Of a stretch of 36,270 nucleotides of DNA, positions 13,472 to 29,220 are shown piece by piece. Source of the stretch: Deltaproteobacteria bacterium (GTDB lineage Bacteria; Myxococcota_A; Bradymonadia; REDH01). Location: the NCBI GenBank assembly GCA_013205435.1, contig JABMMX010000372.1, positions 1-36,270 on the forward strand. Direction: 5' to 3'. The notes beneath the pieces were generated by a model. The model saw only the letters and a list, made by a program, of their open reading frames with translations. It had not been told where the DNA came from and ran no database searches. Position 1 is the stretch's first letter, and every line of letters starts with the position of its first letter. The position numbers were made by a program, and so were the translations under genes.

Positions 13472-13629
13472 GAAACCCCTCTGCAGACTGCGCCCCCGCG
13501 ACCGGCTCCATGAGCTCGGCCGCGGTCGCAAGGTTGCACACGCATTGGCCGCCCGCAAACAGAAACGCCAACGCTCGCTCCGCTGGCAGCCATCCCTGTC
13601 CTCCCCCCTCCGCAGATCTGCCCGTCAGC

Positions 13630-13875
13630 CTACTTGCCGCCCCAGCGCCAGCGCGGAGGCTCGCCCTTCCACCAGCAAACCGCCACCAGCACCGCCGACT
13701 CCGCCAGCACCGCGATACCGCGCTCCGCCAGTAGCACCAACATCGCAACCAACCCAGCCAACCAGACGCCCATCACCACCCAGCCCTGCCAGCAGAGCGG
13801 AAGCCCCCAGCCCCAGCCGTAGCGCTTCGCCGCAAACCAATACTTCGGCAGCTCCACCAACGCGTCACTGCCCAT
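13630..13875 (-). CDS. Small tryptophan-rich membrane protein of unknown function
   Basis: An 81-residue protein beginning MGSDALVELPKYWFAAKR, with YGWGWGLPLCWQGWVV leading into two hydrophobic segments (about residues 29-48 and 52-67) and ending in a short polar tail WKGEPPRWRWGGK. It resembles small bacterial membrane proteins carrying a W-x-x-KRYGWGW...WQGW signature; I recall no assigned function. ATG 13875 overlaps the end of phoU by 11 bases in another frame, with GAGGG nine bases upstream, which supports it as a real, translationally linked gene. The ORF-track start at 13935 would lie further inside phoU and is not needed. Its place directly after phoU hints at a link with phosphate uptake, but that is inference. 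Confidence 0.65.
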   Translation of the reverse strand: MGSDALVELPKYWFAAKRYGWGWGLPLCWQGWVVMGVWLAGLVAMLVLLAERGIAVLAESAVLVAVCWWKGEPPRWRWGGK

Positions 13876-14566
13876 CGGAGCCGCCCTCTTGGCTCGCCAA
13901 TCCGCGGTGGCGGATGTCGAGACCCTCCGCCACAAAAATCACATGCTCCGCCAAGTTCGTCGCGTGGTCGCCGATGCGCTCCAGATACTTCACCACCGAC
14001 TGCACATGGATGCCACGCTTCACTGTCGCTGAATCAGAGACCATCTGCTGAAGCATGCTCCGGAACAGCGTATGATAGGCCTCGTCAATCTCATCGTCCC
14101 GCTCGATCACCGTCCGCGCCTTCGCCACGTCCAGCGTCGCAAAGGCCGCGATCGACTCGCGGTAAATCTCCAGCACCAGCGCGCTCATCTGCGCCACATC
14201 CTCCATCTCTCGAACAGGCGGCTCGGCATTCAAATCCAGCACCCGTTCAGCGATGTTCTTTGCCAGGTCGGCGATCCGCTCGATGTCTGTCACCAGCTTC
14301 AGCACCACCGCGATCAGACGAAGATCCGAGGCCATCGGCTGCCGCTTCGCTAGCAGCAGCAGACACATCTCATCGAGCTCCAACTCGTCGCGGTTCACCC
14401 GCGCATCCAGCGCCAGCGTCTGGCGGGCCTGCACCGTATCGCGCGCAACAAGCGCCGAAACAGCCGTCTCCACCATCACCGCAGCGCGCTCCGCCATCAG
14501 CACGAGCCGCTCGCACAACTCGCTCAGCTCTGCCTCGAATGCACTGTCTGTGTGTCGTCGCTGCAT
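13865..14566 (-). CDS. phoU: Phosphate signalling protein PhoU
   Basis: Cytoplasmic regulator that couples the PstSCAB transporter to the PhoR/PhoB phosphate response and limits phosphate uptake. Seen: 233 aa, all-helical composition, with the two PhoU repeats: an N-terminal one with DSAFEAELSELCERLVLMAERA and DELELDEMCLLLLAKRQPMASDLR, and a second with KYLERIGDHATNLAEHVIFV. The E-R-I-x-D metal-binding motif appears in both (DIERIADLAKNIAE, LERIGDHATN). ATG 14566 is chosen over the track start at 14935 because AGGAGAAGGGG precedes it and the extra residues fall inside pstB. It lies 11 bases after pstB. No phoR or phoB is present in the window. Confidence 0.95.
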   Translation of the reverse strand: MQRRHTDSAFEAELSELCERLVLMAERAAVMVETAVSALVARDTVQARQTLALDARVNRDELELDEMCLLLLAKRQPMASDLRLIAVVLKLVTDIERIADLAKNIAERVLDLNAEPPVREMEDVAQMSALVLEIYRESIAAFATLDVAKARTVIERDDEIDEAYHTLFRSMLQQMVSDSATVKRGIHVQSVVKYLERIGDHATNLAEHVIFVAEGLDIRHRGLASQEGGSDGQ

Positions 14567-14577
14567 CACCCCTTCTC

Positions 14578-15417
14578 CTACCCGAACTTGCCGGTGATGT
14601 AGTCCTCGGTACGGCTGTCTCTTGGCGATGTAAACAAGCGGTTCGTCGGTGCCAATTCGACCAGCGCGCCGCCCAAGAAAAACGCAGTATCGTGCGACAC
14701 CCGTGCCGCCTGCTGCATGTTGTGCGTCACGATCACAATCGTGAACTTCCCGGCCAGCGTATGGATGAGCTCCTCGATGCGAGCGGTTGCGATCGGGTCG
14801 AGCGCCGAACAGGGCTCGTCCATGAGCAACACGTCGGGCTCCACCGCAAGCGCCCGCGCGATGCAGAGCCGCTGCTGCTGGCCACCAGAGAGGCCCAAGC
14901 CGGGCTCCTTCAGCTTGTCGCGCACCTCCTCCCAAAGCGCCGCCGCCCGTAACGAACGCTCCACAATCTCATCGGCCTGCCCGGCAGCCAGACGCCCGGT
15001 CATCACCAGACCCGAGAGCACATTCTCGCGGATGCTCATCGTCGGAAAGGGGTTCGGCTCCTGGAAGACCATCCCCACCCTGCGGCGCAACAGCGCAGGG
15101 TCCACCATGGGTCCATAAATGTCCTGACCGTCGAGCGCCACGCGGCCCGTCACGCGCGCTCCGGCGCCTAGTTCATGCATCCGATTGAGGCATCGGATGA
15201 AGGTCGATTTGCCGCAGCCAGACGGCCCGATCACCGCGGTTACGCAACCGCCTCGGATCTTCATCGAGACTTCGCAGAGCACCTGCTTCTTTCCGTAAAA
15301 GGCGTTGAGCCCCAACGCCTCGATACTGGTGCCGTCGGCGCCCGTCGGAAGACCACGCAGCACCGACCCCGACGCCATCCCCAGCGCCCCTGCTTCCTGC
15401 TCCTGCTCGCTCTCCAT
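14578..15417 (-). CDS. pstB: Phosphate ABC transporter ATP-binding protein PstB
   Basis: ATPase of the high-affinity phosphate importer. Seen: Walker [11 protein letters not shown]-loop VFQEPNPFP, characteristic of PstB; ABC signature LSGGQQQR; Walker [14 protein letters not shown]; and the H-loop [17 protein letters not shown]. The 279 aa include about 30 extra N-terminal residues before the family start ([17 protein letters not shown]), so a start further in is possible, but ATG 15417 is only nine bases from the pstA stop and fits the operon spacing. Confidence 0.96.
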
Positions 15418-15426
15418 CAGATGCTC

Positions 15427-16287
15427 CTAGATACGAGGACGCTGCAGTCGGTGACGCACCAGCACCGCCACCGCGTTGAGACAGAGTACCGCCGCCAACA
15501 GTACCACGATGCCCGCTGCCGCGTTTGCCTGAAACGCCTCCTGAGGGCGCGATACCCAGTTGAAGATCTGGATCGGGAGCGTGCTGTAGGACGACATCAC
15601 ACCGTCCGGCAGGAAGGTAATGAAGGTCGCTGCACCCACGATAATCAGTGGCGCAGACTCTCCGAAGGCACGCGAAAGCGCCAGAATCGAGCCTGTGATC
15701 ATCCCCGGCGCAGCCATCGGAAGCACCACGCTCCGCACCATGCTCCACCGCGTCGCGCCCATCCCCAGCGCAGCCTCCCGCAATGCCTGGGGCACCATCC
15801 GGATCGACTCGCGCGAGGCGGTGATGATGACCGGCATCACCAGAAGCGACAGTGTCAGCGCACCGGCAATGAGGCTCTGCCGCAGCGACAAAAACCGCAC
15901 GAAGATCTCAAGTCCCAGCAACCCGTAAATCACCGACGGAACACCTGCCAGATTGGTGATGTTCACCTCAATCACACCCGCAAACCTGCCGCGCTTGCCA
16001 TACTCTTCCAGATAGAGAGCAGAGCCCACCGAGACCGGTACCGCGATCAGCATCGTCAGCAGCACAAGCACGACGCTCCCCACCAACGCGGGCAGAATCC
16101 CTGCCGCCGACGCGATACGGCTCGGAAACCTCATCACGAAATCTGCGTCAAGCCGCCCGATGCCCTCGGCAGCCACCGCCGCAAGCAGCGCCAGCAGCGA
16201 CACCACAGGCAACACGACCGCAGCAAGACAGAGCCCGCGGAAGACGATCTCTCCCATCGGCATACTCCCGCGGCGCAACCCCATCAT
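15427..16287 (-). CDS. pstA: Phosphate ABC transporter permease PstA
   Basis: Inner-membrane permease of the phosphate importer. Seen: 286 aa with about six hydrophobic helices; the PstA-typical LYLEEYGKRGRFAGVIEVNITNLAGVPS; and the EAA loop REAALGMGATRWSMVRSVVLPMAAPGM that docks PstB. ATG 16287 overlaps the pstC stop as ATGA; other in-frame ATGs follow close by, so the exact N-terminus is uncertain by a few residues. It pairs with PstC to form the channel. Confidence 0.95.
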   Translation of the reverse strand: MMGLRRGSMPMGEIVFRGLCLAAVVLPVVSLLALLAAVAAEGIGRLDADFVMRFPSRIASAAGILPALVGSVVLVLLTMLIAVPVSVGSALYLEEYGKRGRFAGVIEVNITNLAGVPSVIYGLLGLEIFVRFLSLRQSLIAGALTLSLLVMPVIITASRESIRMVPQALREAALGMGATRWSMVRSVVLPMAAPGMITGSILALSRAFGESAPLIIVGAATFITFLPDGVMSSYSTLPIQIFNWVSRPQEAFQANAAAGIVVLLAAVLCLNAVAVLVRHRLQRPRI

Positions 16288-17192
16288 GCCAGCCTCCGGT
16301 AACGCCGCGACAGCCGGTAGCTCACCCAGTTCATACCGAAGGTAATCAAGAACAGCGCGGCTCCCACCACATAGATGCTCTTGTACTCCAGCGTCCCATG
16401 CGGCGTGTCGCCCATGCTCACCTGCACAATGAAGGCCGTCATCGTCGCGATCGGAACCGTCGGATCAAGCGTAAGACGCGGCTGCTGCCCCGCCGCGATC
16501 GCAACGATCATTGTCTCACCTACCGCCCGTGACACCCCAAGAATCACAGATGCCGCGATGCCCGAAAAGGCAGATGGCAACACCACCCGCACAATCGTCG
16601 ATACCCGACCCACACCCAGCCCAAGCGACGCCTCACGAAGACTTACCGGCACCGCACGGATCGCATCCTCACTCAGCGAGGCAATCGTCGGCATGATCAT
16701 CAGCCCCATCACCAGCCCGGGCGCCAACGCGTTGAAGGCGCCGATGCTGGGCATCATCTTCTGAAGCACCGGAGTCACAAAGATGAGCGCCACATAACCG
16801 TAGACCACCGTTGGAACGCCGGCGAGAACCTCCACGCTCGGCTTCAGCCAGAACCGCACACGCGGCGACGAAAACTCGCTCATCTGAATCGCTGCCAGCA
16901 GCCCGAACGGCACAGCGACCGTCATCGCAATGAAGGAGGTCAGCACCGTCCCGCACACCAGCGGCCAGATGCCAAAATGCTGCTGCGCAAACAGCGGTGT
17001 CCACTCCGTGTCCAAGAGGAAGGCGCCCGGCGAAACCTCCGAGAAGAAGGCCGCACTCTCCAAGCCCAGCGTCAGCACGATCGCCGCAGTCGTGGCCACC
17101 GAGACCATTGCCGCCAGCCGCAACAGAGCCTCGATCACGCGCTCAGAGAGGGGCCGCTCGACCCGGCTCAGGGATGATGCGTCGTTCTCCAC
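16284..17192 (-). CDS. pstC: Phosphate ABC transporter permease PstC
   Basis: Second inner-membrane permease of the phosphate importer. Seen: 302 aa with about six membrane helices; LKPSVEVLAGVPTVVYGYVAL; the EAA loop REASLGLGVGRVSTIVRVVLPSAFSGI; and SRAVGETMIVAIAAG, all diagnostic of PstC. The start is GTG 17192 with AGGG upstream; it lies eight bases after the pstS stop. A long periplasmic loop near residues 45-70 is usual in this family. Confidence 0.95.
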   Translation of the reverse strand: MENDASSLSRVERPLSERVIEALLRLAAMVSVATTAAIVLTLGLESAAFFSEVSPGAFLLDTEWTPLFAQQHFGIWPLVCGTVLTSFIAMTVAVPFGLLAAIQMSEFSSPRVRFWLKPSVEVLAGVPTVVYGYVALIFVTPVLQKMMPSIGAFNALAPGLVMGLMIMPTIASLSEDAIRAVPVSLREASLGLGVGRVSTIVRVVLPSAFSGIAASVILGVSRAVGETMIVAIAAGQQPRLTLDPTVPIATMTAFIVQVSMGDTPHGTLEYKSIYVVGAALFLITFGMNWVSYRLSRRYRRLA

Positions 17193-17200
17193 AGGCTGCC

Positions 17201-18304
17201 CTACTTGGGCGCCGGGGCGCCGCTCCCCGACCCATCTGCCACCGCCACCTCTGCGAGCTTCAGCACCTCATCGAGCTTCGCACCGACAGCAGAGCCATCG
17301 GCAAAAAGCGTGCCCTTCTTGCCCGCTGCAAAGCGCCTCTGCACGGCGGCAGAGGTCGACACTGCGAGGGGAATGAAGCCGACCTCTCTCGAGAGCCGCG
17401 CTGCGTTCGACACATAGAAGGCAACCAGCTCCTTGACCTCGGCACGCCCGAGGCTCGCCACAGACACATAGACGAAGAGCGGACGAGCGAGCGGCTGATA
17501 GGTGCCCGCAAGGACCGTCGCCGGCGAAGGCGAAACTGGCCCGGGGCCGTTTGCAGCAACACCGTCATCAATCGGAACCACACGCAGTTTCCCCGCGCTC
17601 TCTGCGAAGTAGGAGTAGCCAAAAAAGCCGAGCGCCAGCTTGTCGGTAGAAACCCCCTGAACCAGAACATTGTCGTCCTCGCTCGAGGTGTAGTCGCCGC
17701 GGCTAGCGTGCTCCGAACCAACGATCGCCTTCGTGAAGTAATCGTAGGTGCCTGAGTCGACGCCGGCACCGAACAGCCGAATCTCCTCGTCGGGCCATGA
17801 AGACCGGACCTGGCTCCACTTTGTGACGCGCTTCTGCGCATCCGGCTCCCACATCCGCTTCAGCTCATCGACCGTCATAAAGTCGACCCAGCTGTTCTGC
17901 GGATTGACGACCACCGACAGCGCGTCGTAGGCCACTGCAATCTCAACGAAGCCAACCCCCTTGTCGGCGCAGGCCTTCGACTCGGCAGGCCGAATCGGAC
18001 GCGACGCTCCGGCGATATCGAGCTCACCGTTACAGAACTTCTGGAAGCCGCCGCCTGTGCCCGAGGCCCGCACCGTCACGCGGGAAGGCCGCTGTTTCTG
18101 GAACTCCTCTGCCACCGCCTCGCCGAGCGGAAGCAGGGTGCTCGAACCATCCATGCGGATCTCAGCGCCTGCCGCAACGGGTGCAGCCGAACCACTCCCG
18201 GAGCCGCTCTGCGCAGGTGCCGCGGGTTCGCCGCGACCGCTGCAGGCAACCGTCAAGAGCACCGCCAAACCACCTACAAAAGCCCGCGTCGACTGCTTCA
18301 TCAT
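17201..18304 (-). CDS. pstS: Phosphate-binding lipoprotein PstS (SphX-like)
   Basis: Periplasmic phosphate-binding component of PstSCAB. Seen: a lipoprotein signal peptide ending LLTVAC with Cys21 as the likely lipidated residue (the -3 Thr is not ideal), then a Ser/Gly/Ala-rich linker and the binding domain. The DGSSTLLPLGEAVAEEF start and RASGTGGGFQKFCNGELDIAGASRPI are typical of the PstS/SphX family. Length 367 aa is normal. ATG 18304 has GGAG six bases upstream; a second ATG follows directly. First gene of pstS-pstC-pstA-pstB-phoU. The 173-base leader holds the terminator of the preceding gene and weak promoter-like motifs. Confidence 0.95.
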   Translation of the reverse strand: MMKQSTRAFVGGLAVLLTVACSGRGEPAAPAQSGSGSGSAAPVAAGAEIRMDGSSTLLPLGEAVAEEFQKQRPSRVTVRASGTGGGFQKFCNGELDIAGASRPIRPAESKACADKGVGFVEIAVAYDALSVVVNPQNSWVDFMTVDELKRMWEPDAQKRVTKWSQVRSSWPDEEIRLFGAGVDSGTYDYFTKAIVGSEHASRGDYTSSEDDNVLVQGVSTDKLALGFFGYSYFAESAGKLRVVPIDDGVAANGPGPVSPSPATVLAGTYQPLARPLFVYVSVASLGRAEVKELVAFYVSNAARLSREVGFIPLAVSTSAAVQRRFAAGKKGTLFADGSAVGAKLDEVLKLAEVAVADGSGSGAPAPK

Positions 18305-18477: not shown

Positions 18478-19779
18478 TTAGTTCGCCGGGTAGCTGGTCC
18501 AGCCAGCGGTCCAGGCAGCGCCCGTCGGGGCGAAGGCACCGTGGTAGGTCGCCGTGGCATCGAAGCCCGCGGGCGGGGTCGCGCCACCGGACTGAACGGC
18601 GGTGTTACCGGCCGCGAAGTCGGGAGCGGTCAGGCTGGTCGAAGCGAACTGGGGGTCGACCGTGACGAAGCCCTTGCCGGCGTTGCCGAAGTAGAGGGCC
18701 TCATCGAAGTCGGCATCGTTGTCGTCGGCGGGGAACTGGTCCGCGCCGTTGCCGAAGAAGTCGATGTTCGAGAAGTCGAGCGTCGAGTCGCCGACAAGCG
18801 CGGTGACCGTCGCGCCATCAAGGTCGATTGCGCCAGCCTGGAAGTTGGCAACGATCGAGTTCTTGAGAATCAGACCAGCGCCACGACGGATGTGGAGGCC
18901 ACCCTGCTCGGCGTTGGCACCCGAACCGACGAACGAGGCGTTGAAAATGGTCGGGCGCGACCGGGGGGTCGAGTCGACGACATCCTTGAGGTTGTCGCCC
19001 TCGATTGCCTTGTCGCCCACGCTCGCGCTCTGCTGAATCGCGAGGAACTGCACGTTGCCGCGCCAGCCTTGGTCGTAGTCGAGCGAATCGTCAGCAGCCT
19101 GCGTAATGAGGAGGTGCTTGATGCTGGCTGTGCCGCCGAAGAACTCAACGCCGTCGTCCTTGCCAAGGTGGCTCTGGATGAAGTCGAGCTCGGTCGCCGA
19201 GCCGCAGCCGCCAACCGTGAGGCCGTTCAGCTCGTTGTCGGTGCCGAAGACGTAACCGGCAAACTCGATGCGGGCATACTTGAGCGTACCGCAGCTGCTG
19301 GCGTCGTCGGTGCCGCCGTAGAGCGACGCGGGGCCGGCAGGCATACCCTCGATGTTGCCCTCGCCGCCGGCGAGGTTGAGGGTCGCCGAGCCAAGAAGAA
19401 CCACGCCACCCCAGTCGCCGGAAGCGCGCGAGCCCTCGGGCTTGGAGCTGGTGAAGACGATGGGCGAGGCAGCCGTGCCAGCCGCGTTGAGCTTGGCGCC
19501 GCGCGAGATGACAAGCGCCGAACCGTTGTCGCCCTTGACGATAACGCCGGGCTCAATGGTGAGCGTCGCGTTGTTGGTGACGACGATGAGCATCGAAAGC
19601 GTGACGATCGAGCCGCTGGCCCAGGTCGTGTCGGCGGTGACGTCCGAGCTGACCGTGATCTCCGTCGCCGCGGGGGTGCCCGTGTCGGCAGTACCCGTGT
19701 CGGTCGAGTTGCTCTCCTCTTCCGAGCAACCGGAGAGAAGGGCGAGAAGAGAGAGACTGCAAACGAGATGCTTCATCAT
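18478..19779 (-). CDS. Putative beta-helix surface lipoprotein
   Basis: Seen: a lipoprotein signal MMKHLVCSLSLLALLSGC with a good lipobox (LSGC), an acidic Ser/Thr/Asp linker, then a long repetitive Gly/Asn/Asp-rich domain of beta-helix character: TLTIEPGVIVKG, GDWGGVVLLGSATLNLAGGE, NGLTVGGCGSATELDFIQSH, DDGVEFFGGTASIKHLLI, GAIDLDGATVTALVGDSTL. It ends AGWTSYPAN. This block order recalls lipoproteins found beside TonB-dependent receptors in Bacteroidetes and other Gram-negatives, whose function I do not know. Of three nearby ATGs, 19779 is preferred (GGAG seven bases upstream), giving 433 aa. It lies downstream of the receptor gene and upstream of pstS, with its own candidate promoter and a strong terminator. 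A role at the cell surface with the receptor is inference. Confidence 0.75.
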   Translation of the reverse strand: MMKHLVCSLSLLALLSGCSEEESNSTDTGTADTGTPAATEITVSSDVTADTTWASGSIVTLSMLIVVTNNATLTIEPGVIVKGDNGSALVISRGAKLNAAGTAASPIVFTSSKPEGSRASGDWGGVVLLGSATLNLAGGEGNIEGMPAGPASLYGGTDDASSCGTLKYARIEFAGYVFGTDNELNGLTVGGCGSATELDFIQSHLGKDDGVEFFGGTASIKHLLITQAADDSLDYDQGWRGNVQFLAIQQSASVGDKAIEGDNLKDVVDSTPRSRPTIFNASFVGSGANAEQGGLHIRRGAGLILKNSIVANFQAGAIDLDGATVTALVGDSTLDFSNIDFFGNGADQFPADDNDADFDEALYFGNAGKGFVTVDPQFASTSLTAPDFAAGNTAVQSGGATPPAGFDATATYHGAFAPTGAAWTAGWTSYPAN

Positions 19780-19872
19780 TACCATGCTCCGTTCAACCCC
19801 AGTTTCGAAGACGGGCTCAGCGCGCATCGGGGACATTGCGCGACAGCCTCTTTGAGAGTGTGCGTCATCCAA

Positions 19873-19885
19873 CACGATGATCGTG
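19873..19885. promoter_or_regulatory. Odd-centred palindrome in the lipoprotein gene leader
   Basis: CACGATGATCGTG, a perfect 6+1+6 inverted repeat about 94 bases upstream of the lipoprotein start. It would fall in the transcribed leader if the promoter at 19925-19953 is used. Possible operator; function unknown. Confidence 0.35.
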
Positions 19886-19924
19886 ATCGGAGCGCGACGG
19901 GTCTGTGACATTTGCCCGCCATGC

Positions 19925-19953
19925 ACGATAAGTGTGCGCCACAGACGTGTGAC
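19925..19953 (-). promoter_or_regulatory. Candidate promoter of the beta-helix lipoprotein gene
   Basis: On the minus strand GTCACA (19948-19953), a 17-base spacer and TATCGT (19925-19930). The -10 hexamer is the same as at the tRNA-Val and HU promoters. Use of this promoter gives a leader of about 140 bases. The -35 element lies inside the 15-bp palindrome listed next. Confidence 0.45.
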
Positions 19954-19967: not shown

Positions 19968-22900
19968 CTACGGTTCCCAGCCAACAGAGAGGCTGATGTC
20001 CGTGTCGGTCAGCTCCTCTTCCACGATCACGCCACCCTGCTCGGCACGGCGCGACTGGCCGAGGAGATTCCGGGCGCCGCCCTTCAGCTTCAGCCCCTCG
20101 CTGATCTCATACGACACCGTCAGATCCACCTTGTGGAAGGGCTCTGCGTAGACATCGGGAAGCCCAAGCAGACCCACCGTCGTGAGCTCCCGGCCCATGA
20201 CGTTGTAGAGCACCGTCGCCGAGATCGGAGAGGCCTCCGGCTCGTAGGAGAGAGAGCCGTTTACCATGTAGGAGGCCTGTCCCTGAAGCGGCCGCTCGGA
20301 CGATGTCGCAGCCCGCTGCTGCTCCTTGCCCACCGTCACGCTCGAGGTGATGAAGGAGGCGTTCGCGCCAACCGAGAGGGCTGCGAGCGCCTTCGCGAGT
20401 CCGCTCAACCCCGTCCTGAACTCCACCTCCGCGCCATAGCTCTCTGCGCTCTCAGCGTTGCCGTAGGTGACTTCGCCGGCCTGCGTCAGGCTCTGCTCGA
20501 TGGGGTGCAGAGGCACCTTGTAGAACAGGCTCGCAGCGAGAACCTCGGTGTTGCTCGGGAACCACTCCCACCGCAGATCGCTGCTGTGAACATAGGTGCG
20601 GAGCAGGTCGGGGTTGCCGGTGATGGTCTTGCGGCGAACGTAGTCCTGGAAGGCAAAGGGCGCGACCTCGCGACCCTGCGGACGGGCCACGCTGGCGCCG
20701 TAGTTCGCACGCACAAACATACCCTCGTCGAGTTCGAAGACGAGGCCCGCGGAGGGAAGCAGGTCGAACTCACCGCGCTCCACCGTTTCGCGCGTGAAGA
20801 CCCGCTGCCCGAGGAAGGGCGAACCGGAGACGACCGTCTGGTTGTAGTTCTCTGCCCGGGCGCCGCCCACAACCCGAAGCCACTCGAGCGGCTTGAAGTC
20901 GCTCATCAGGTAACCTGCGGTCATCACCTGATCGACCTCATACCGATCATTACCGCCCGTCTCCTCGCCGAACGTGAGCACGCTGTCGATGTTGCCACTC
21001 CCGATGTTTTCGTCGCTGAAGAGCTGCTCCGGGTCGAGCGCGCGCTGATCGCCCGTTCCGCAGAGTGTGCCGCAGGCGAAGCGGAAGCGGCGCGAGTCAA
21101 AGGCGCGGTGGCCCTTGAGCAGGTCGATGCCTGAGCTGAGGCTCGACTCGAGGCCGAGCGGCATCTTCCAGTCGAGGCCACCGGCGAGGTCGAGCTGATC
21201 GAGCTCCGAGAAGAAGCGCTCACCCGAACCCGGGTCCTGCCGCCAGCGGAAGATGCCATCGAGACCATCCCGTTTGAGGTAGCGGGTATCGGGCTCGTTG
21301 CGGGCTGCCCAGAGCACGTTGGTGTTCCACTTCACTTCGCTGTCGGCAAAGAGGTTACGGTGTCTGCCAACGAGCTGCGTGAAGGAGAAGCTGCGCTCCA
21401 CCCACTGCAGCCTCCGGCCCTCGTAGGGACGACCCTTGTCGGCCGAAACGTCGGTCGTGACATCGTTCACCAGATCGCTCCCCGACTGGCTGAAGAGCTC
21501 TGCAAAGGTGATCTGGTTGGCGTCGCCCCAGTTCTTGGTCGCAGTACCGAGCAAACCCCAGCGCGACTTCCGCTTGTCGCTCCGCTCCGTGAGCGTCTCC
21601 GAGATCGAGAGGTCGCCTGCGCCGTCGAGCGAGATAGAGCGGATGGTCCGCTCGTCCACGCTGTAGCTCCGGCTGTAGTTGGCGGTCAGCAGGTAGCCCC
21701 AGACGTTGCCCTCGGGGCCGCCGGAGTCACCGATGGTTGCCTTCAGACCCATACCCGGCAGCGCCGTCGACTGCTCAGGGTTCCAGACGTTGTCTAGCGA
21801 CCTGCCCGCCTCCGCCACCTGCTCCCGCGAGAGGCCCCGCCCGAGTTCGATGCGCTGGTCGGGGAAGCTGTCGGGAAGCGCGCGGCTGCCGTCATCAAAC
21901 CCAAGCCAGTCGAGGCTCCCGCCCTTGTAGGTTGCATGGTTGCCAAAGGTGGTGCCGGGCGTGACGGAGACCGAGGCGCCGAGCGAGAGCTTCCACTCTT
22001 CGGGGTAGTCGCGCGTGCCGATATCCATCTGGCCGGCAGCGCAGCCGCCGCTGAGGTTGGGCGTGAAGCTCTTGTAGACCGTGAGGTTGGAGAGCAGGTC
22101 GGAGGGGAAGATATCGAGCTGCACGCCGGGGAAGTCCGGGTCGGTTCCCCGCACAATCACGCCGTTCATCGTCACGCAGGTGTAGCGGCCGCCGAGCCCG
22201 CGAATGTAGAGGAACTGGTCATCGACGATGCTCGCGCCGACCACCCGCTTGACGGCGTCGCTGGCAGCCGAGTCGGGCGCCTTCGACATCTCCTGTGCGC
22301 TGACGGCGTCGGAGACAGCCGCCGACTCACGCCGCTCCATCAGCTGCGTTGCCGCATTCTCCTTGATGGCGCGGCCTTCGACCACGAAGGTCTCGGAGTT
22401 CTTCTCATCCACACCCATCGAGAGCGCGCCGAGATCGGCTGGCTGGTCGGCCAGGACCTCCACCTCGAAGGCCTCGGTCGCGTAGGAAAAGAGCTTGGCA
22501 CGGACAACAAAGAGGCCCGGATCAAGGTCGAAGAAGAAGGTGCCGTCGGCGCCCGTTCGAGCCGTACTGGTAGTGCCCTCCACCTCAACAGCGACGCCGT
22601 CGAGGGGCGTTCCGAACTCGCGATCGACCAACTTGCCGGTGATACGGACCTTGCCCGTGGGGACAACTGCAGGCGGCGTGGGCGCGACCGGCTCGCTCTT
22701 GTCGAGGTCGTCCCAGAAATCGCCGTAGTAGGCATCTTCAGCGTCGGGCGTCAGCGGCGCAGGGAGCTCGTCTCCGGGTACTGGCGCGATCTCCTCTTCG
22801 AGCGACGGAACATCCTCATCCTCAAACGAGGGAGCGATCTCCTCTTCGAGCGACGGAACAACCTCATCCTCAAAAGAGGGAGCGTTCTCCTCTTCGAGGG

Positions 22901-23189
22901 CCGGCGCGATCTCTTCCTCAAACGAGGGAGCGATCTCCTCTTCGAGGACCGGTGCGATCTCTTCCTCAAACGAGGGAGCGATCTCCTCTTCGAGGGCGGG
23001 TGCGATCTCCTCTTCGAACGAAGGAACGATCTCCTCTTCGAGTCCCCCCGAACCGTCAGGCGGCGCAGTCGCACCAGAGCCCTCCACGGCGGGGGCCGGT
23101 TGTGCCATCAGCGCCGCGGTCGGGACTCCCGCAAGCAACACCAGCGCCGCAATAAGCAACGCACTCCAGACGCGACCCACGTTGAACAT
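19968..23189 (-). CDS. TonB-dependent outer-membrane receptor with acidic repeat
   Basis: Outer-membrane active-transport receptor of 1073 aa. Seen in order: signal peptide ending near TAALMAQ (about residue 29); an acidic 11 x 8-residue repeat (51-138); an Asp/Pro linker; a carboxypeptidase-regulatory-like beta-sandwich (about 178-250; VRITGKLVDREFGTPLDGVAVEVEG); a possible TonB box ETFVVEG; a plug domain with VSDAVSAQEMSKAPDS and LYIRGLGGRYTCVTMNGV; then a beta-barrel with YGNAESYGAEVEF-like strands near the end (NAESAESYGAEVEFRTG). It ends SVGWEP rather than in the terminal Phe common in barrels. GAGGG precedes ATG 23189, which is 26 bases after tonB, so the two form an operon. The substrate is not evident from sequence; proximity to pst genes suggests phosphate or a phosphorus compound, and iron or other ligands remain possible. 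Confidence 0.9.
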   Translation of the reverse strand: MFNVGRVWSALLIAALVLLAGVPTAALMAQPAPAVEGSGATAPPDGSGGLEEEIVPSFEEEIAPALEEEIAPSFEEEIAPVLEEEIAPSFEEEIAPALEEENAPSFEDEVVPSLEEEIAPSFEDEDVPSLEEEIAPVPGDELPAPLTPDAEDAYYGDFWDDLDKSEPVAPTPPAVVPTGKVRITGKLVDREFGTPLDGVAVEVEGTTSTARTGADGTFFFDLDPGLFVVRAKLFSYATEAFEVEVLADQPADLGALSMGVDEKNSETFVVEGRAIKENAATQLMERRESAAVSDAVSAQEMSKAPDSAASDAVKRVVGASIVDDQFLYIRGLGGRYTCVTMNGVIVRGTDPDFPGVQLDIFPSDLLSNLTVYKSFTPNLSGGCAAGQMDIGTRDYPEEWKLSLGASVSVTPGTTFGNHATYKGGSLDWLGFDDGSRALPDSFPDQRIELGRGLSREQVAEAGRSLDNVWNPEQSTALPGMGLKATIGDSGGPEGNVWGYLLTANYSRSYSVDERTIRSISLDGAGDLSISETLTERSDKRKSRWGLLGTATKNWGDANQITFAELFSQSGSDLVNDVTTDVSADKGRPYEGRRLQWVERSFSFTQLVGRHRNLFADSEVKWNTNVLWAARNEPDTRYLKRDGLDGIFRWRQDPGSGERFFSELDQLDLAGGLDWKMPLGLESSLSSGIDLLKGHRAFDSRRFRFACGTLCGTGDQRALDPEQLFSDENIGSGNIDSVLTFGEETGGNDRYEVDQVMTAGYLMSDFKPLEWLRVVGGARAENYNQTVVSGSPFLGQRVFTRETVERGEFDLLPSAGLVFELDEGMFVRANYGASVARPQGREVAPFAFQDYVRRKTITGNPDLLRTYVHSSDLRWEWFPSNTEVLAASLFYKVPLHPIEQSLTQAGEVTYGNAESAESYGAEVEFRTGLSGLAKALAALSVGANASFITSSVTVGKEQQRAATSSERPLQGQASYMVNGSLSYEPEASPISATVLYNVMGRELTTVGLLGLPDVYAEPFHKVDLTVSYEISEGLKLKGGARNLLGQSRRAEQGGVIVEEELTDTDISLSVGWEP
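22776..23039. repeat. 24-bp tandem repeat, 11 units, in the receptor gene
   Basis: Eleven uninterrupted 24-bp units encode the 8-residue consensus EEEIAPSF / EEEIAPAL, with variants at several positions (EEENAPSF, EDEVVPSL, EDEDVPSL, EEEIAPVP). The early units alternate SF with AL or VL, giving a 16-residue higher-order period. Total 264 bp, 88 residues. Confidence 0.95.
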
Positions 23190-23215: not shown

Positions 23216-23992
23216 TCAGGCGAGCCGGAAGGGAAAGCGCCAGGTGAAGGCTACGGCGATGGGCTTCCCTCCGTGGTCTTTGGCCGGCTCATACTCCCAG
23301 TCTCGGATGATGGAGATGGCATACTCTGCCAACTCCGGTGGGCCGTCTTTGGCGCGGCAGGCGCGCACTTTGCCCTTCTCCGTGACGATGCACTGAACCA
23401 CGACGAGGCCGCTGATCGCCTTCTCTCGGAAGGCACGCGGGTAGCCCATCTTAGGATCCTGCTTGATGGCCTTCGGCGGCGTTCCAGCTTGATCGAGGCG
23501 CACCGGGCCGCGACGGACCTTTGCCGCCGGCTTGGGAGCAGTGGTCGCGACCTTTGGCGGTGCCTGCGGCGGGGGCGCCACGCCTTGGCCGTTGCCACTC
23601 GCCATCCCCGGGCCGTTCCCTCCCTCCACGGCGCCCATGTCTGGCCCCGAGTCTGGAGGCAGTTCTGCGGCAGGCTCTGGCTCGGGCTCGGGTTCCGCCT
23701 CTTTTGCAGCAACAGGCTCTGGCGGCGGCGGTTCCGGTTCGGGCTCCTTCTTGGCCTCCTCCTTGACCGGCGCGTCTGGCGGATCGGTGAAGGTCGAGTC
23801 GAAGGCGATGAACTCAACCGCGCGCGTCAGCCTCCCCGTTGCGGCAAACTGCCCTGCGCCGAAGATGAAGGCGTGCAGCGCCACAGAGGCAACAAACACC
23901 AGAACCCAGAGCACCGAGCGCCGCGAGGATCGTTCTTCCTGCATGGGTCGATAGGACGAGCCCATCGAACGAACGCGTGAAGTTTCACTCAT
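23216..23992 (-). CDS. tonB: Energy transducer TonB
   Basis: Periplasm-spanning protein that passes proton-motive energy from ExbB/ExbD to outer-membrane receptors. Seen: one N-terminal membrane helix SVLWVLVFVASVALHAFIFGA; a long Pro/Glu-rich linker (EEAKKEPEPEPPPPEP, KEAEPEPEPEP); a Gly-rich stretch; and a C-terminal TonB domain with YPRAFREKAISGLVVVQCIV and DWEYEPAKDHGGKPIAVAFTWRFPF. ATG 23992 (MSETSRVRS) has GGTGG upstream and gives 258 aa; the track start at 24040 has no such support. The linker is almost purely acidic, with few of the Lys-Pro pairs of E. coli TonB. First gene of tonB-receptor; no exbB or exbD is in the window. Confidence 0.9.
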   Translation of the reverse strand: MSETSRVRSMGSSYRPMQEERSSRRSVLWVLVFVASVALHAFIFGAGQFAATGRLTRAVEFIAFDSTFTDPPDAPVKEEAKKEPEPEPPPPEPVAAKEAEPEPEPEPAAELPPDSGPDMGAVEGGNGPGMASGNGQGVAPPPQAPPKVATTAPKPAAKVRRGPVRLDQAGTPPKAIKQDPKMGYPRAFREKAISGLVVVQCIVTEKGKVRACRAKDGPPELAEYAISIIRDWEYEPAKDHGGKPIAVAFTWRFPFRLA

Positions 23993-24206
23993 GAATGCCA
24001 CCAGTACCCAGTTGGCTGGCGCCGTCTCAGCGGCAACCAATCAATTCGAATGTGCCGCTTCACTACCTCGCCAATGTGACAAACAGCGCACAACGAAGTG
24101 CAGGTAAGGCACCTTCGGCATCACTTCCGCGCTCTGCAGATCCGCGGCACCGACCCGCTCCGTTGGCTGGCGGCCCCCACGGATTTCTTGATCTGGCGGT
24201 GTCGGC

Positions 24207-24901: not shown

Positions 24902-26803
24902 ATGAGGAACTTTGCGGAACATCAGTCGCAGGCGAGACGGCAGACGCGCACCCTCATCTGGCTCTTCGTCGTGGCGGTCGCAGCCGTTGCGGTGAGCCTG
25001 TACGCCCTCGTTGGGGTGTTCACGCTGCCGGCCGATCCTGCGCATCCTGGCAGCCGTATCTGGTGGGACGGTAAGACCGCCTTCATCGCGGCCTGCGCAG
25101 CACTCGGAACCATCGGGCTAGGAGCGCTTCTGAAGCATTCTGCGCTCTCCTCGGGCGGCAAAGCGGTGGCGGAGTCGGTGGGCGGAAAGCTCGTGACCAG
25201 CGACACGCGCGACCCCGAGGAGCGGAAGCTGCTCAACGTGGTCGAGGAGATGTCCATCGCCTCAGGAGTCCCGCTCCCGTTGGTCTATGTCCTCGATCAT
25301 GAGGAGGGCATCAACGCCTTCGCGGCGGGATACTCGGTGAACGATGCCGCGGTGGCAGTGACGCGAGGCGGCCTCCGAACGCTCAACCGAGCGGAGCTGC
25401 AGGGTGTGATGGCGCATGAGTTCAGCCACATCCTCAACGGCGACATGCGCATCTCCATCCGGCTCATCGCGGCGGTAGCGGGCATAGAGGCCATCGCCGG
25501 CATCGGGCGGTGGCTGCTCGCCAGCAGCCTGCATACGGGCATGATGCTCGGCAGCCGTAAGCGCGAGAACGGCGCACCGATGCTGATGATCGGCATCGCA
25601 ATGCTGGTCATCGGTGCCGCGGGCATCGCCTTCGGTCACCTGATCCGCGCGGCCATCTCGCGGCAGCGCGAGTATCTGGCCGACGCGTCGGCGGTACAGT
25701 TCACGCGTGACCCCTCAGGCATCGCCAATGCACTGAAGAAGATCGGCGGACTTGATGCCGGCTCGCGCGTGAAGGCCTCGCAGGCGACGGAGTTAAGCCA
25801 CCTCTTCTTCGGGCAGGCGCAGGCGCACGCGGCCTTCGGAAGCCTGCTGGCGACCCACCCGCCACTGGCAGAGCGGATTCGGCGGCTCGACTCTGCATTT
25901 GACGGGACCTTCGCCGCGACCCAGGGCGCGGATGACGACGCCGGCGAGCGGGGAGCGATCGCCGGGCTGTCGGGGGAAGGGGTTGGCCGTGGTCGCATCT
26001 CTGCGGCAGCGTTGCTGCAGCGTGACAGCGGTATGGGCTCGCACCAGGTGGCGATGGCCCGCATCCGCATGGAGGATATCTCGCCGGCGCTGCGCGAGGC
26101 AGCGACCCATCCGCTTGGCGCCGCCGCGATCGTCGTCTTGGCGAGCGACCTGTCGGCCGCCCAGGGGGCAGCGGCCGCCGAGTTCGAGGTGACGCCGGCC
26201 CTGCTCGCGGAGGCGCAGCGATTGGAGCCCCATCACGCGCGCATGACGCCCGCTGCTCGACTCACGCTCGTTCAGCTCGCTTGCGGGCCACTGCGGCAGC
26301 TCGGCGCGACACAGGCAGCCATGCTGCTCCGCATCTCCAACGCAGCGATGATTGCGGACCAGCGGCTTACGCCCTTCGAGGTGGTGCTTCGAGAGGTGCT
26401 TCACGAGCACCTTGGCGCGGTTGTCGACGGGGCAGCAGCGCGGCGCATGCAGTTTGTAGCCTACCGCGCCGTCACCACCCACATCGAGGTGCTGCTCTCT
26501 GCGATGGCCCACCTCGGGGGTTCGGGTGCCGCTGCAGGTTCGGCCTTCCGCGACGCGGCGAAGGGGCTCCCTTCGGAGGTCGAGGCTGCCGTTGCGCTGC
26601 GAGGCCGGGCGGTGCTCGAAGACGAGGCGCTTACCGTGGCGATCCGACAGCTCGCGCGAGCGTCGACAGCGATCAAGCAAGGGGTACTCGAAGCGTTGGC
26701 CGCTGCGGCGGTGAGCGACGGCACGATTGGCCCGGAGGAGGCCGACATGGTCCGCGCTATAGCCATCATCTTCCAGCTCCCGCTCCCGCTGCCAGAGGCT
26801 TAG
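24902..26803 (+). CDS. M48 family membrane metallopeptidase with TerB-like C-terminal domain
   Basis: Integral-membrane zinc peptidase of the HtpX/Ste24 type, 633 aa. Seen: two N-terminal membrane helices (LIWLFVVAVAAVAVSLYALVGV and AFIAACAALGTIGLGALL); the zinc site HEFSH at 172-176 with the later Glu ligand region RQREYLADASAVQFT; a third hydrophobic stretch LMIGIAMLVIGAAGIAFG; and the TH-PLAERIRRL motif of M48 enzymes. The last 130 or so residues, ending LEALAAAAVSDGTIGPEEADMVRAIA, resemble a TerB-like helical domain. AGGAG lies upstream of ATG 24902. Pairs with lemA. Its stop overlaps the convergent murF-alr stop. Confidence 0.88.
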   Translation: MRNFAEHQSQARRQTRTLIWLFVVAVAAVAVSLYALVGVFTLPADPAHPGSRIWWDGKTAFIAACAALGTIGLGALLKHSALSSGGKAVAESVGGKLVTSDTRDPEERKLLNVVEEMSIASGVPLPLVYVLDHEEGINAFAAGYSVNDAAVAVTRGGLRTLNRAELQGVMAHEFSHILNGDMRISIRLIAAVAGIEAIAGIGRWLLASSLHTGMMLGSRKRENGAPMLMIGIAMLVIGAAGIAFGHLIRAAISRQREYLADASAVQFTRDPSGIANALKKIGGLDAGSRVKASQATELSHLFFGQAQAHAAFGSLLATHPPLAERIRRLDSAFDGTFAATQGADDDAGERGAIAGLSGEGVGRGRISAAALLQRDSGMGSHQVAMARIRMEDISPALREAATHPLGAAAIVVLASDLSAAQGAAAAEFEVTPALLAEAQRLEPHHARMTPAARLTLVQLACGPLRQLGATQAAMLLRISNAAMIADQRLTPFEVVLREVLHEHLGAVVDGAAARRMQFVAYRAVTTHIEVLLSAMAHLGGSGAAAGSAFRDAAKGLPSEVEAAVALRGRAVLEDEALTVAIRQLARASTAIKQGVLEALAAAAVSDGTIGPEEADMVRAIAIIFQLPLPLPEA

Positions 26804-29220
26804 CCTGCGGAGGCGTGGAAGATGCGGCGCACCCGCGGCGAGACGCGGGTGAGCAGTTCATAGCTGATGGTATCTGCCAGCTCTGCGAGCGCTTCGAGGT
26901 CGGGCTCTCCGGGAGCTGCCCCGAAGACGACGACCTCGTCACCTGCGCGTGGCGGCGGATCGAGGTGGGTCACATCGAGCATGGTTACATCCATGCAGAC
27001 CCTTCCGACAACCGGGCAACGCTCGCCGCGGATCGACATCCAGCCCCGGTTGGAGAGGGAGCGCGGGTAGCCGTCGTTGTAGCCCAACGCCGCCACTGCG
27101 ATGCGCTGCGGGGTTGCGCCGGTCGAGTAGGTATGGCCGTATCCCACGCCATGTTCGGCGGGGAGCTCCTTGACGGAGACGAGGCGGGTAACGAGCCGCA
27201 AAGCCCGCTGCAGACCGACGGTCGCTGCGTCGGGTGAAAAGCCGAAGAGCCCGATGCCAGCTCGGATGCCCGAGTAGCGAGATGAGGGGAAACGGATGCC
27301 GCCGGCCGTGTTTGCTGCATGCACCCAGCGTGGCGTGATGCCAGCCTCGGCGAAGGCTGTGACGATGCGCTCGAAGGCGGCGATCTGGGCGCGGGTCTCG
27401 GTGTCGCGCGCCGGTTCGTCTGCGGAGGCGAGATGGGTCATCAGTCCGACGACCTCGAGCGACCTACTCTGCAGCACGAACGCGAGCACCTGGTCGAGTT
27501 CGGTAGGCAGAAAGCCGACACGCCCCATGCCGGTATCGAACTTGATGTGGACGCGTGCGACCGTCTGCTGTTGCTCCGCCGCAGCCTCCAGTTCGCGCAT
27601 CGTTGTCATGGTTCCGAGCTCGGCGCTGAGGTTCTCGCGCAGCAGTTTCCCCATCTCGTGAGGGAGCACATTCTGCACCAGAATCGCGGCGGTGATTCCC
27701 CGGGCTCGGAGGGCGATGCCCTCATCGGGGAAGGCAACACAGAAGCAGCTGGCGCCGACCCGCTCTAGGGCCTGGGCGATGCGCACGGAGTCGACACCGT
27801 AGCCATAGGATTTCACGACCGGCATCACGGAGACACCGCCGGCAGCAACGCGCAGCCGTCTGTAGTTCTCCACGATAGCGTCGATATCGACATGCAAGAG
27901 TGTGCTGGAGACTGCGTCGAGGAGCTCGGCGGCGACGGTCTCGAGGCGCGCGGGCCGGCTCCCCTTGAGCAGAACCCTGTCGCCGGGCTGTGCCCAGTGT
28001 TCGAGCAGCTTGGCGGCCGAGGCAGCGTCGGCGGTCGTGACAACGGCGCTCGCAGCCATGCCCGCCTCGATGGCGGCCGCGACAATCTCTGCGCCACCAT
28101 CACCGACGCCAATGAGCCTGTCGACGCCGAGCCGCGCGACCAGTGCGCCAACCTCGCGGTGTGCACGGAGCGAGGCCTTTCCCAGCTGCGCCATGCCGCC
28201 AAGGACAGCGATGGAGCGACCAGCAGTGCGCTCCTGCTGCAGGAACCGGAGCGCTGCCGCAACGCTCTCGGGGTCGGCGGTGTAGGCGTCGTTGATGACC
28301 ACCAGTCCGCGGGTGGTGGAGCTCCACTCGAGGCGGCCCGGCGATGGCTGCCAGCGCGACAGTCCGAGCGTGGCCTCCTCCTGCGAGACGCCCAGCGCCA
28401 ACGCACAGGTGATCGCCAACGCTGCGTCGGTTCGGAGGACCCAGTTGGAAGCCCAGTTCGCGGTCAGAAGCTGCGTCGCTCGAGCCGGTTCCACCTCCTG
28501 CGCGTCGCAGGGGAGCGGGGCTACCGCGAGCAGCGCGAGCGACTCCGACTGCGGAATGAAGATTTTACATCCCTTGGACATCTCAGCAAAGAGCTGCACC
28601 TTCTCGGCTGCGATGCCCTCTCGGCTTGCGAGACCCTCGAGATGCGCCGAACCGACATTCGTCCAGATGCCCATGGTGGGCCGCACCATGCGCTGCAGCC
28701 GGAGCATCTCGCCCGGCTGCGAGATGCCGCACTCGATGATTGCGACATCGGCGCCGGGGTCGAGACCGAGGAGCGACTGAGCCACGCCGACCTGCGAGTT
28801 GTAGCCGAGCGGCGTGCCCGTGACGCGGAGGGCGTCGGAGAGCGCGCAGACCAACATCTCTTTGGTGGTGGTCTTCCCGTTGCTGCCCGTGATTGCGATG
28901 ACCGCGCCCGAAAACCGGCTCCGCGCGATGCTGGCGAGTGCCTGGATGGCAACCGTGGTATCTGCGACGACCACAAAGGCGTCGCCTGGGCGGCGCACGG
29001 ACGGGAGCTTGCTGCAAAGCGCGACGGCTGCGCCAGCGTCGAGCGCGGTTCGGACAAAAGCATCGCCGTCTCTCTGGGCTTGAAGCGCTACAAAGAGGTC
29101 TCCCTCGCGCACACCGCGGCGGGTGTCGATGATGGCGCGCTCACACCTGCGCTCGCCATCTCCCACCAGCTCACCGCCAGTCCAGGCAGCGATCTGCGCC
29201 GCTGTCGCGGGCCAAATCAC
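26800..29220 (-). CDS. murF-alr: Bifunctional MurF ligase / alanine racemase
   Basis: Two peptidoglycan-precursor enzymes in one 806-residue chain. The N-terminal half (about 1-430) is MurF, which adds D-Ala-D-Ala to UDP-MurNAc-tripeptide: ATP site GSNGKT at 112-117, NVGSAHLEG, and VINDAYTADPESV with the ligase C-terminal domain. The second half (about 435-806) is a PLP-dependent alanine racemase making D-Ala from L-Ala: PLP lysine K470 in VVKSYGYGV (many homologues have VKADAYGHG), HIKFDTGMGRVGF, and the catalytic Tyr at about 694 in VGYGHTYS; CMDVTML near the end is also typical. Both active sites look intact. The start is GTG 29220, overlapping the kdd stop as GTGA. Last gene of the run; no terminator seen. 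Confidence 0.93.
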   Translation of the reverse strand: MIWPATAAQIAAWTGGELVGDGERRCERAIIDTRRGVREGDLFVALQAQRDGDAFVRTALDAGAAVALCSKLPSVRRPGDAFVVVADTTVAIQALASIARSRFSGAVIAITGSNGKTTTKEMLVCALSDALRVTGTPLGYNSQVGVAQSLLGLDPGADVAIIECGISQPGEMLRLQRMVRPTMGIWTNVGSAHLEGLASREGIAAEKVQLFAEMSKGCKIFIPQSESLALLAVAPLPCDAQEVEPARATQLLTANWASNWVLRTDAALAITCALALGVSQEEATLGLSRWQPSPGRLEWSSTTRGLVVINDAYTADPESVAAALRFLQQERTAGRSIAVLGGMAQLGKASLRAHREVGALVARLGVDRLIGVGDGGAEIVAAAIEAGMAASAVVTTADAASAAKLLEHWAQPGDRVLLKGSRPARLETVAAELLDAVSSTLLHVDIDAIVENYRRLRVAAGGVSVMPVVKSYGYGVDSVRIAQALERVGASCFCVAFPDEGIALRARGITAAILVQNVLPHEMGKLLRENLSAELGTMTTMRELEAAAEQQQTVARVHIKFDTGMGRVGFLPTELDQVLAFVLQSRSLEVVGLMTHLASADEPARDTETRAQIAAFERIVTAFAEAGITPRWVHAANTAGGIRFPSSRYSGIRAGIGLFGFSPDAATVGLQRALRLVTRLVSVKELPAEHGVGYGHTYSTGATPQRIAVAALGYNDGYPRSLSNRGWMSIRGERCPVVGRVCMDVTMLDVTHLDPPPRAGDEVVVFGAAPGEPDLEALAELADTISYELLTRVSPRVRRIFHASAG

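Follow-up and report, generated by a model that had tools for sequence, protein, structure and literature searches.

A repeat-built acidic N-terminal tail on an Oar-type TonB-dependent receptor beside pst genes, with a possible part in TonB recruitment

The window, that is, the whole stretch of 36,270 nucleotides analysed, carries on one strand and in this order tonB, a receptor gene, a gene for a predicted lipoprotein, pstS, pstC, pstA, pstB and phoU, with a divergent LemA gene upstream. The assignments were as follows:

23216..24040 (−): tonB, about 274 aa, 26 bp upstream of the receptor, start codon uncertain; PF03544/TIGR01352
19968..23189 (−): TonB-dependent receptor (P0001), 1073 aa; Pfam Plug, TonB_dep_Rec_b-barrel and CarboxypepD_reg above cut-off, AF2 matches
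18478..19926 (−): lipoprotein with a predicted beta-helix fold, conserved partner gene of the receptor; related loci, AF2
17201..18304 (−): pstS; TIGR02136 above cut-off
14578..17192 (−): pstC, pstA and pstB; TIGR02138, TIGR00974 and TIGR00972 above cut-off
13865..14935 (−): phoU, ORF as listed; TIGR02135

Since PhoU homology starts at residue 132 of its ORF, the true phoU start lies nearer 14540. Elsewhere in the window, a single ORF (26800-29220, −) joins MurF-type Mur ligase and alanine racemase domains in a bifunctional fusion, and its match to NF008897 is below cut-off.

The first-pass annotation had called the receptor a TonB-dependent receptor (TBDT), which was borne out: PF07715 and PF00593 score above cut-off, the beta-barrel covers residues 584-1042 (Pfam), and the AF2 model matches FecA, PhuR, FhuA, XusA and many TBDT structures. 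PF13620 scored 38.7 bits against a cut-off of 32.3, which gives the Oar domain architecture, with CarboxypepD_reg before the plug. With TIGR01782 (TonB-Xanth-Caul receptors), the receptor reached 209.5 bits, below the curated cut-off of 310, and the STN signalling domain of the FecA/FpvA cell-surface-signalling type was absent in the Pfam scan. From the N-terminus, the features are:

22776..23039 (−): eleven-unit acidic 8-residue repeat, residues 51-138, in register
22701..22730 (−): acidic-aromatic motif YYGDFWDDLD, residues 154-163, after the repeat; alignment, tails of relatives
22431..22643 (−): CarboxypepD_reg N-terminal extension (NTE) domain, residues 183-253; Pfam PF13620/PF13715
22371..22394 (−): TonB-box-like ETFVVEGR, residues 266-273, in the interval between CarboxypepD_reg and plug; sequence and alignment
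22038..22331 (−): Plug domain, residues 287-384; PF07715

By its similarity to TonB boxes, ETFVVEGR is a putative TonB box; pLDDT is low at 262-272 in the AF2 model. The protein can be described as a TBDT of the Oar type whose N-terminal tail is acidic and made of repeats. Oar-type TBDTs such as Myxococcus xanthus Oar share the domain order, with a CarboxypepD_reg NTE, and have a TonB box before the plug, where the receptor here has its putative one, while the available part of the Oar report does not mention an acidic repeat tail ahead of the NTE (PMC6434023). A difference from Oar is that a lipoprotein of predicted beta-helix type and pst genes accompany the present receptor. Also comparable are the NTE-bearing XusA/XusB and SusC-like receptors (PDB 9gbc, 5t3r), which likewise have a carboxypeptidase-regulatory-fold NTE followed by plug and barrel, as well as a surface lipoprotein partner. 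They differ in their substrates and have low sequence identity to the receptor here. An acidic repeat tail is not known in these receptors.

The array is real and lies, as had been proposed, between the signal peptide and the CarboxypepD_reg domain. Its eleven in-register units are EEEIVPSF, EEEIAPAL, EEEIAPSF, EEEIAPVL, EEEIAPSF and EEEIAPAL (units 1-6), then EEENAPSF, EDEVVPSL, EEEIAPSF, EDEDVPSL and EEEIAPVP (units 7-11), so that the 88 residues hold 31 E, 3 D and no K or R. TRF detected the array at periods of 24 bp (score 230) and 48 bp (score 335), with a self-identity of 0.65 over 240 bp and 0.88 over 216 bp, respectively. Codon shuffles never exceeded these values, the maximum being 0.46 gene-wide (2000 shuffles) and 0.45 in the tail only (5000 shuffles, period 24). 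The description of the 24-bp units as highly similar proved too strong: their mean pairwise identity is only 73%, against 80% for alternate units. Therefore, the array truly repeats every 48 bp/16 aa, position 8 alternating between F and L. A pattern search of the own genome found no other copies, only weak matches with 2-3 mismatches.

In the AF2 model, receptor residues 14-177 have pLDDT <50, one isolated residue excepted, and a weak helix appears at 156-162 within YYGDFWDDLD. The net charge is −44 over residues 29-180. The repeat is thus predicted to belong to a free, intrinsically disordered, strongly acidic N-terminal tail in the periplasm, and the idea of an extended spacer does not fit in the sense of a linker joining two folded parts. 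Equivalents of YYGDFWDDLD occur in the family (YYEELWDDFE, WDDFWDAFD), and tails of lineage f34 end in a GFCFEDLTEDEE-like stretch. As a tail signature, the common short motif [FW]x(0-2)[DE][DEA][LIVF] is only a lead, with repeats inflating its counts; it exceeded shuffles in the four genus members, L007, L079, L226 and L231, and L200, L225, L230, L237 and L008 failed at p<0.05.

Unit number differs between species, as the first-pass annotation had suggested a comparison of related genomes might show: orthologues in three same-genus MAGs have 9, 11 and 8 units against 11 here (four genomes, a comparison between species). E1, E3 and P6 are invariant in 39/39 units of the four species and pN/pS among units is 0.21-0.34, indicating purifying selection on the protein sequence of the repeat even as the number of units changes. 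An assembly artefact can be rejected. The MAG from which the window derives is fragmented (404 contigs), but the array is short (264 bp) and three other assembled relatives carry orthologous arrays with differing unit numbers and diverged units, which leaves an artefact a negligible chance. Isolate names of the same-genus MAGs (uncultured Myxococcales/deltaproteobacteria), e.g., ErkenSummer, suggest freshwater lakes; salt-in halophily is therefore unlikely as the cause of the acidity.

The array is unusual for TBDTs, as had been claimed. The three other plug-domain proteins of the genome have no tail of this kind, and related genomes outside Myxococcota mostly have either a short stretch from signal peptide to CarboxypepD_reg or a different domain in its place. 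In Myxococcota orthologues, this stretch is a hotspot for low-complexity repeat tails. Tails of at least 40 aa occur in 57/150 distinct orthologues (a set mostly of Myxococcota), and in 31 of the 57 the repetition is significant (p≤0.01); the units, unrelated to one another, include TAQQPGTEADP (M. xanthus), NVPSGQPAAPAPGM (Pyxidicoccus), GPIE, GPME, EG, DDADS and AEAEADAG. Tail length ranges from 0 to 220 aa and tail charge, on the equivalent receptor, from −66 to about 0. Within the own family, the tails stay acidic while the repeat is replaced: EEEIAPSF in the genus, GTFEPSWDDEDDTED in L008 and D/W runs in L007, the last two tails each ending in an acidic-aromatic motif resembling YYGDFWDDLD. 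Lineage f18 (L232, L233, L235, L236) has a tail made of the 4-residue GPIE/GPME repeat.

Of the three functions proposed for the repeat, contact with TonB was the best supported. The accompanying statement that the TonB linker is also acidic did not hold for the part next to the receptor-binding domain, which is basic, the acidic Glu-Pro stretch lying farther away:

23444..23554 (−): TonB basic segment directly before the C-terminal domain (KVATTAPKPAAKVRRGPVRLDQAGTPPKAIKQDPKMG); sequence
23651..23764 (−): TonB acidic Glu-Pro-rich stretch, farther from the C-terminal domain; sequence

The 53 aa before the domain have a net charge of about +8. Since the basic segment adjoins the receptor-binding domain, the contact idea becomes one of charge complementarity. 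Basic segments before the C-terminal domain also occur in TonBs beside acidic-tail receptors (KPAAKVRRGPVRL, ERREERRAERDRERRRPVRL, RRRTRQARAEAQEQVRRQPERRRPVRL), those of L007 and L008 being still more Arg-rich than here, while in Myxococcaceae TonBs, where receptor tails are weaker, the linker before the domain is net −4. The basic linker cannot be specific to the tail, because only one canonical TonB was found in the 81%-complete genome for four plug-domain proteins, of which one is tailed. The linker of E. coli TonB carries Glu-Pro stretches followed by Lys-Pro ones; in simulations they form a hairpin, which may hide the ExbD-binding motif (PMC10771500). The systems are alike in having disordered segments of opposite charge able to fold back on each other, but both lie in TonB in E. 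coli, whereas here a further acidic segment lies on the receptor. As to gene order, tonB directly adjoins the receptor in the window and ExbB homologues lie on other contigs; at L079 (3136-5577), from another Myxococcota lineage, the receptor is preceded by tonB, one exbB-like gene and a pair of exbD-like genes.

A survey across the phylum covered 104 distinct pairs of a receptor tail and the TonB encoded upstream. Tail charge and TonB linker charge were inversely related (Spearman −0.51 for 104 pairs, −0.62 for 47 genus means and −0.50, p=0.029, for 19 family means), while receptor core charge, taken as the control, gave +0.20, +0.29 and +0.16 for pairs, genus and family, respectively. General protein acidity was rejected as the cause, since receptor core charge does not track tail charge in like direction. 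With cut-offs picked after inspecting the data, the TonB segment was ≥+3 in 12/13 family-labelled tails of net ≤−20 and in 3/52 other tails. A second lineage, f34, shows the pairing again (e.g., L231, and L079, which clusters with f34; DDGFAVEDES repeats), as does L200, a single member of f14. On the receptor tree, independent contrasts gave r=−0.14, with p=0.16 (p=0.03 by sign-flip); about four acidic and five basic changes fall on this tree, with 3 of the ~4 acidic origins on a basic-TonB background. The acidic tail of L234 (DDADS repeats) accompanies a neutral TonB, and basic linkers occur without strongly acidic tails in L235, L236 and L208, likewise in E. coli. The charge association is suggestive, and weak after phylogenetic correction.

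The gene neighbourhood bears on the substrate. Of 80 related loci, drawn from many phyla, most have a homologue of the lipoprotein close to the receptor, and several have pst genes no more than 10 kb away. The AF2 model of the lipoprotein is all-strand with weak structural matches, mostly to beta-helix proteins, so a beta-helix fold is predicted; a PDB search with its profile gave no sequence match. Low phosphate strongly induces two neighbours of phoBR in Flavobacterium johnsoniae, namely the TBDT Fjoh_0545 and a lipoprotein annotated with a pectin-lyase fold, Fjoh_0546 (PMC8115612). Likened by family and annotation, the Fjoh_0545-type TBDT and the receptor here have PF07715 (plug), PF13715 (CarboxypepD_reg-like) and PF14905 (barrel) in common, and both loci place a TBDT and then a lipoprotein in a phosphate-regulation neighbourhood; the F. 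johnsoniae system differs in belonging to Bacteroidetes and in that an acidic tail is not described (PMC8115612). The receptor here has an adjoining lipoprotein of predicted beta-helix type, as in low-phosphate TBDT/lipoprotein pairs. From the pst-phoU neighbourhood and the likeness to the Flavobacterium pair, a role in phosphate or organophosphate uptake is likely. Matches to an E. coli-type Pho box did not rise above chance.

The reading that we favour, tentatively and at a little less than an even chance, is that the disordered acidic-aromatic tail helps to recruit TonB electrostatically to a receptor that is probably for phosphate or organophosphate. The supports for recruitment are the predicted disorder, the charge, the conservation pattern, the gene context and the co-occurrence with a basic TonB. 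The tail would lengthen and shorten through tandem duplication, while selection would preserve its acidic residues, proline and spaced hydrophobic/aromatic residues. Many weak acidic-aromatic sites might then hold the basic linker segment of the neighbouring TonB and so raise the local TonB concentration near the TonB box ETFVVEGR, perhaps in competition with TonB's own acidic Glu-Pro arm for the basic segment. Physical binding, competition, the effect on transport and the substrate are what we infer here. A point against recruitment is that M. xanthus Oar still supports secretion after deletion of its CarboxypepD_reg NTE (PMC6434023), so N-terminal parts can be dispensable. If tails do capture TonB, evolution would be able to adjust the priority of a receptor through its number of units. 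It is a further, unlikely, extension that several Myxococcota lineages independently evolved, through the growth of tandem repeats, an acidic-aromatic tail mimicking the Glu-Pro arm and capturing the basic linker of TonB, as a second, charge-based TonB docking site in addition to the TonB box, its strength set by repeat number.

The main rival is a passive spacer: low-complexity DNA expanded by slippage at a tolerant site after the signal peptide, without a partner, K/R being avoided because Sec export demands a low number of positive charges at the start of the mature protein. This is a serious possibility, though a rather doubtful one. It accounts well for the many neutral tails, and agrees with the unrelated, nearly always K/R-poor compositions found at the site (P/Q/T/S, G/S, IEGP, TAQQPGTEADP), with the span of tail lengths and with other acidic or 24-bp minisatellites in the genome (L002, L003; the 99-bp repeats in the RecC-like gene). 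It does not sit easily with purifying selection on the units, with a strong acidity and an acidic-aromatic motif kept in the family despite sequence replacement, or with the clustering of strong acidity on basic-TonB backgrounds. Even a passive tail would represent one fixed site of repeat expansion in a conserved receptor family, with many unrelated units.

Two other functions appear far less probable than TonB recruitment. The tail enters the periplasm first, and disordered acidic tails could, from general knowledge, engage basic chaperone surfaces, so while the receptor is being assembled it might interact with the BAM complex or with chaperones of the periplasm; such an aid to biogenesis is improbable, since the other plug-domain proteins of the genome have no such tail and the link to TonB charge would be left unexplained. 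The binding or buffering of divalent cations (Ca2+, Mg2+), also put forward in the first-pass annotation, would agree with the high Glu/Asp content and the net charge, but it is very improbable: the Pfam scan gave no calcium-binding domain, inspection by eye showed neither an EF-hand nor an RTX-like motif, and charge falls to about 0 in tails of the equivalent receptor. The original observation was confirmed and its interpretation partly supported.

Further repeats and an unusual receptor were seen in the genome. Within the window, the ORF 9419-13558, read from its sequence as a RecC-like exonuclease subunit, contains 1.9 copies of a 99-bp (33-aa) acidic repeat (10585-10771, −, 95% match), a further minisatellite within a conserved protein. 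At a contig end (C102; L002, 1456-1690), an acidic 8-residue repeat, EVDEAPAI/EEEEAPAI, with a 24/72-bp period forms the end of a protein whose gene is immediately followed by a DnaK-like one. This contig stops within the array, and repeats may therefore be a cause of fragmentation in the MAG. Another contig end (C210; L003, 1408-1845) encodes an Ala-Pro-Glu repeat protein with a 24/45-bp period and an acidic C-terminus. Finally, a plug-domain protein on C5 (L116) has a TonB_C-like N-terminal domain ahead of a CarboxypepD-like stretch, an unusual receptor architecture.
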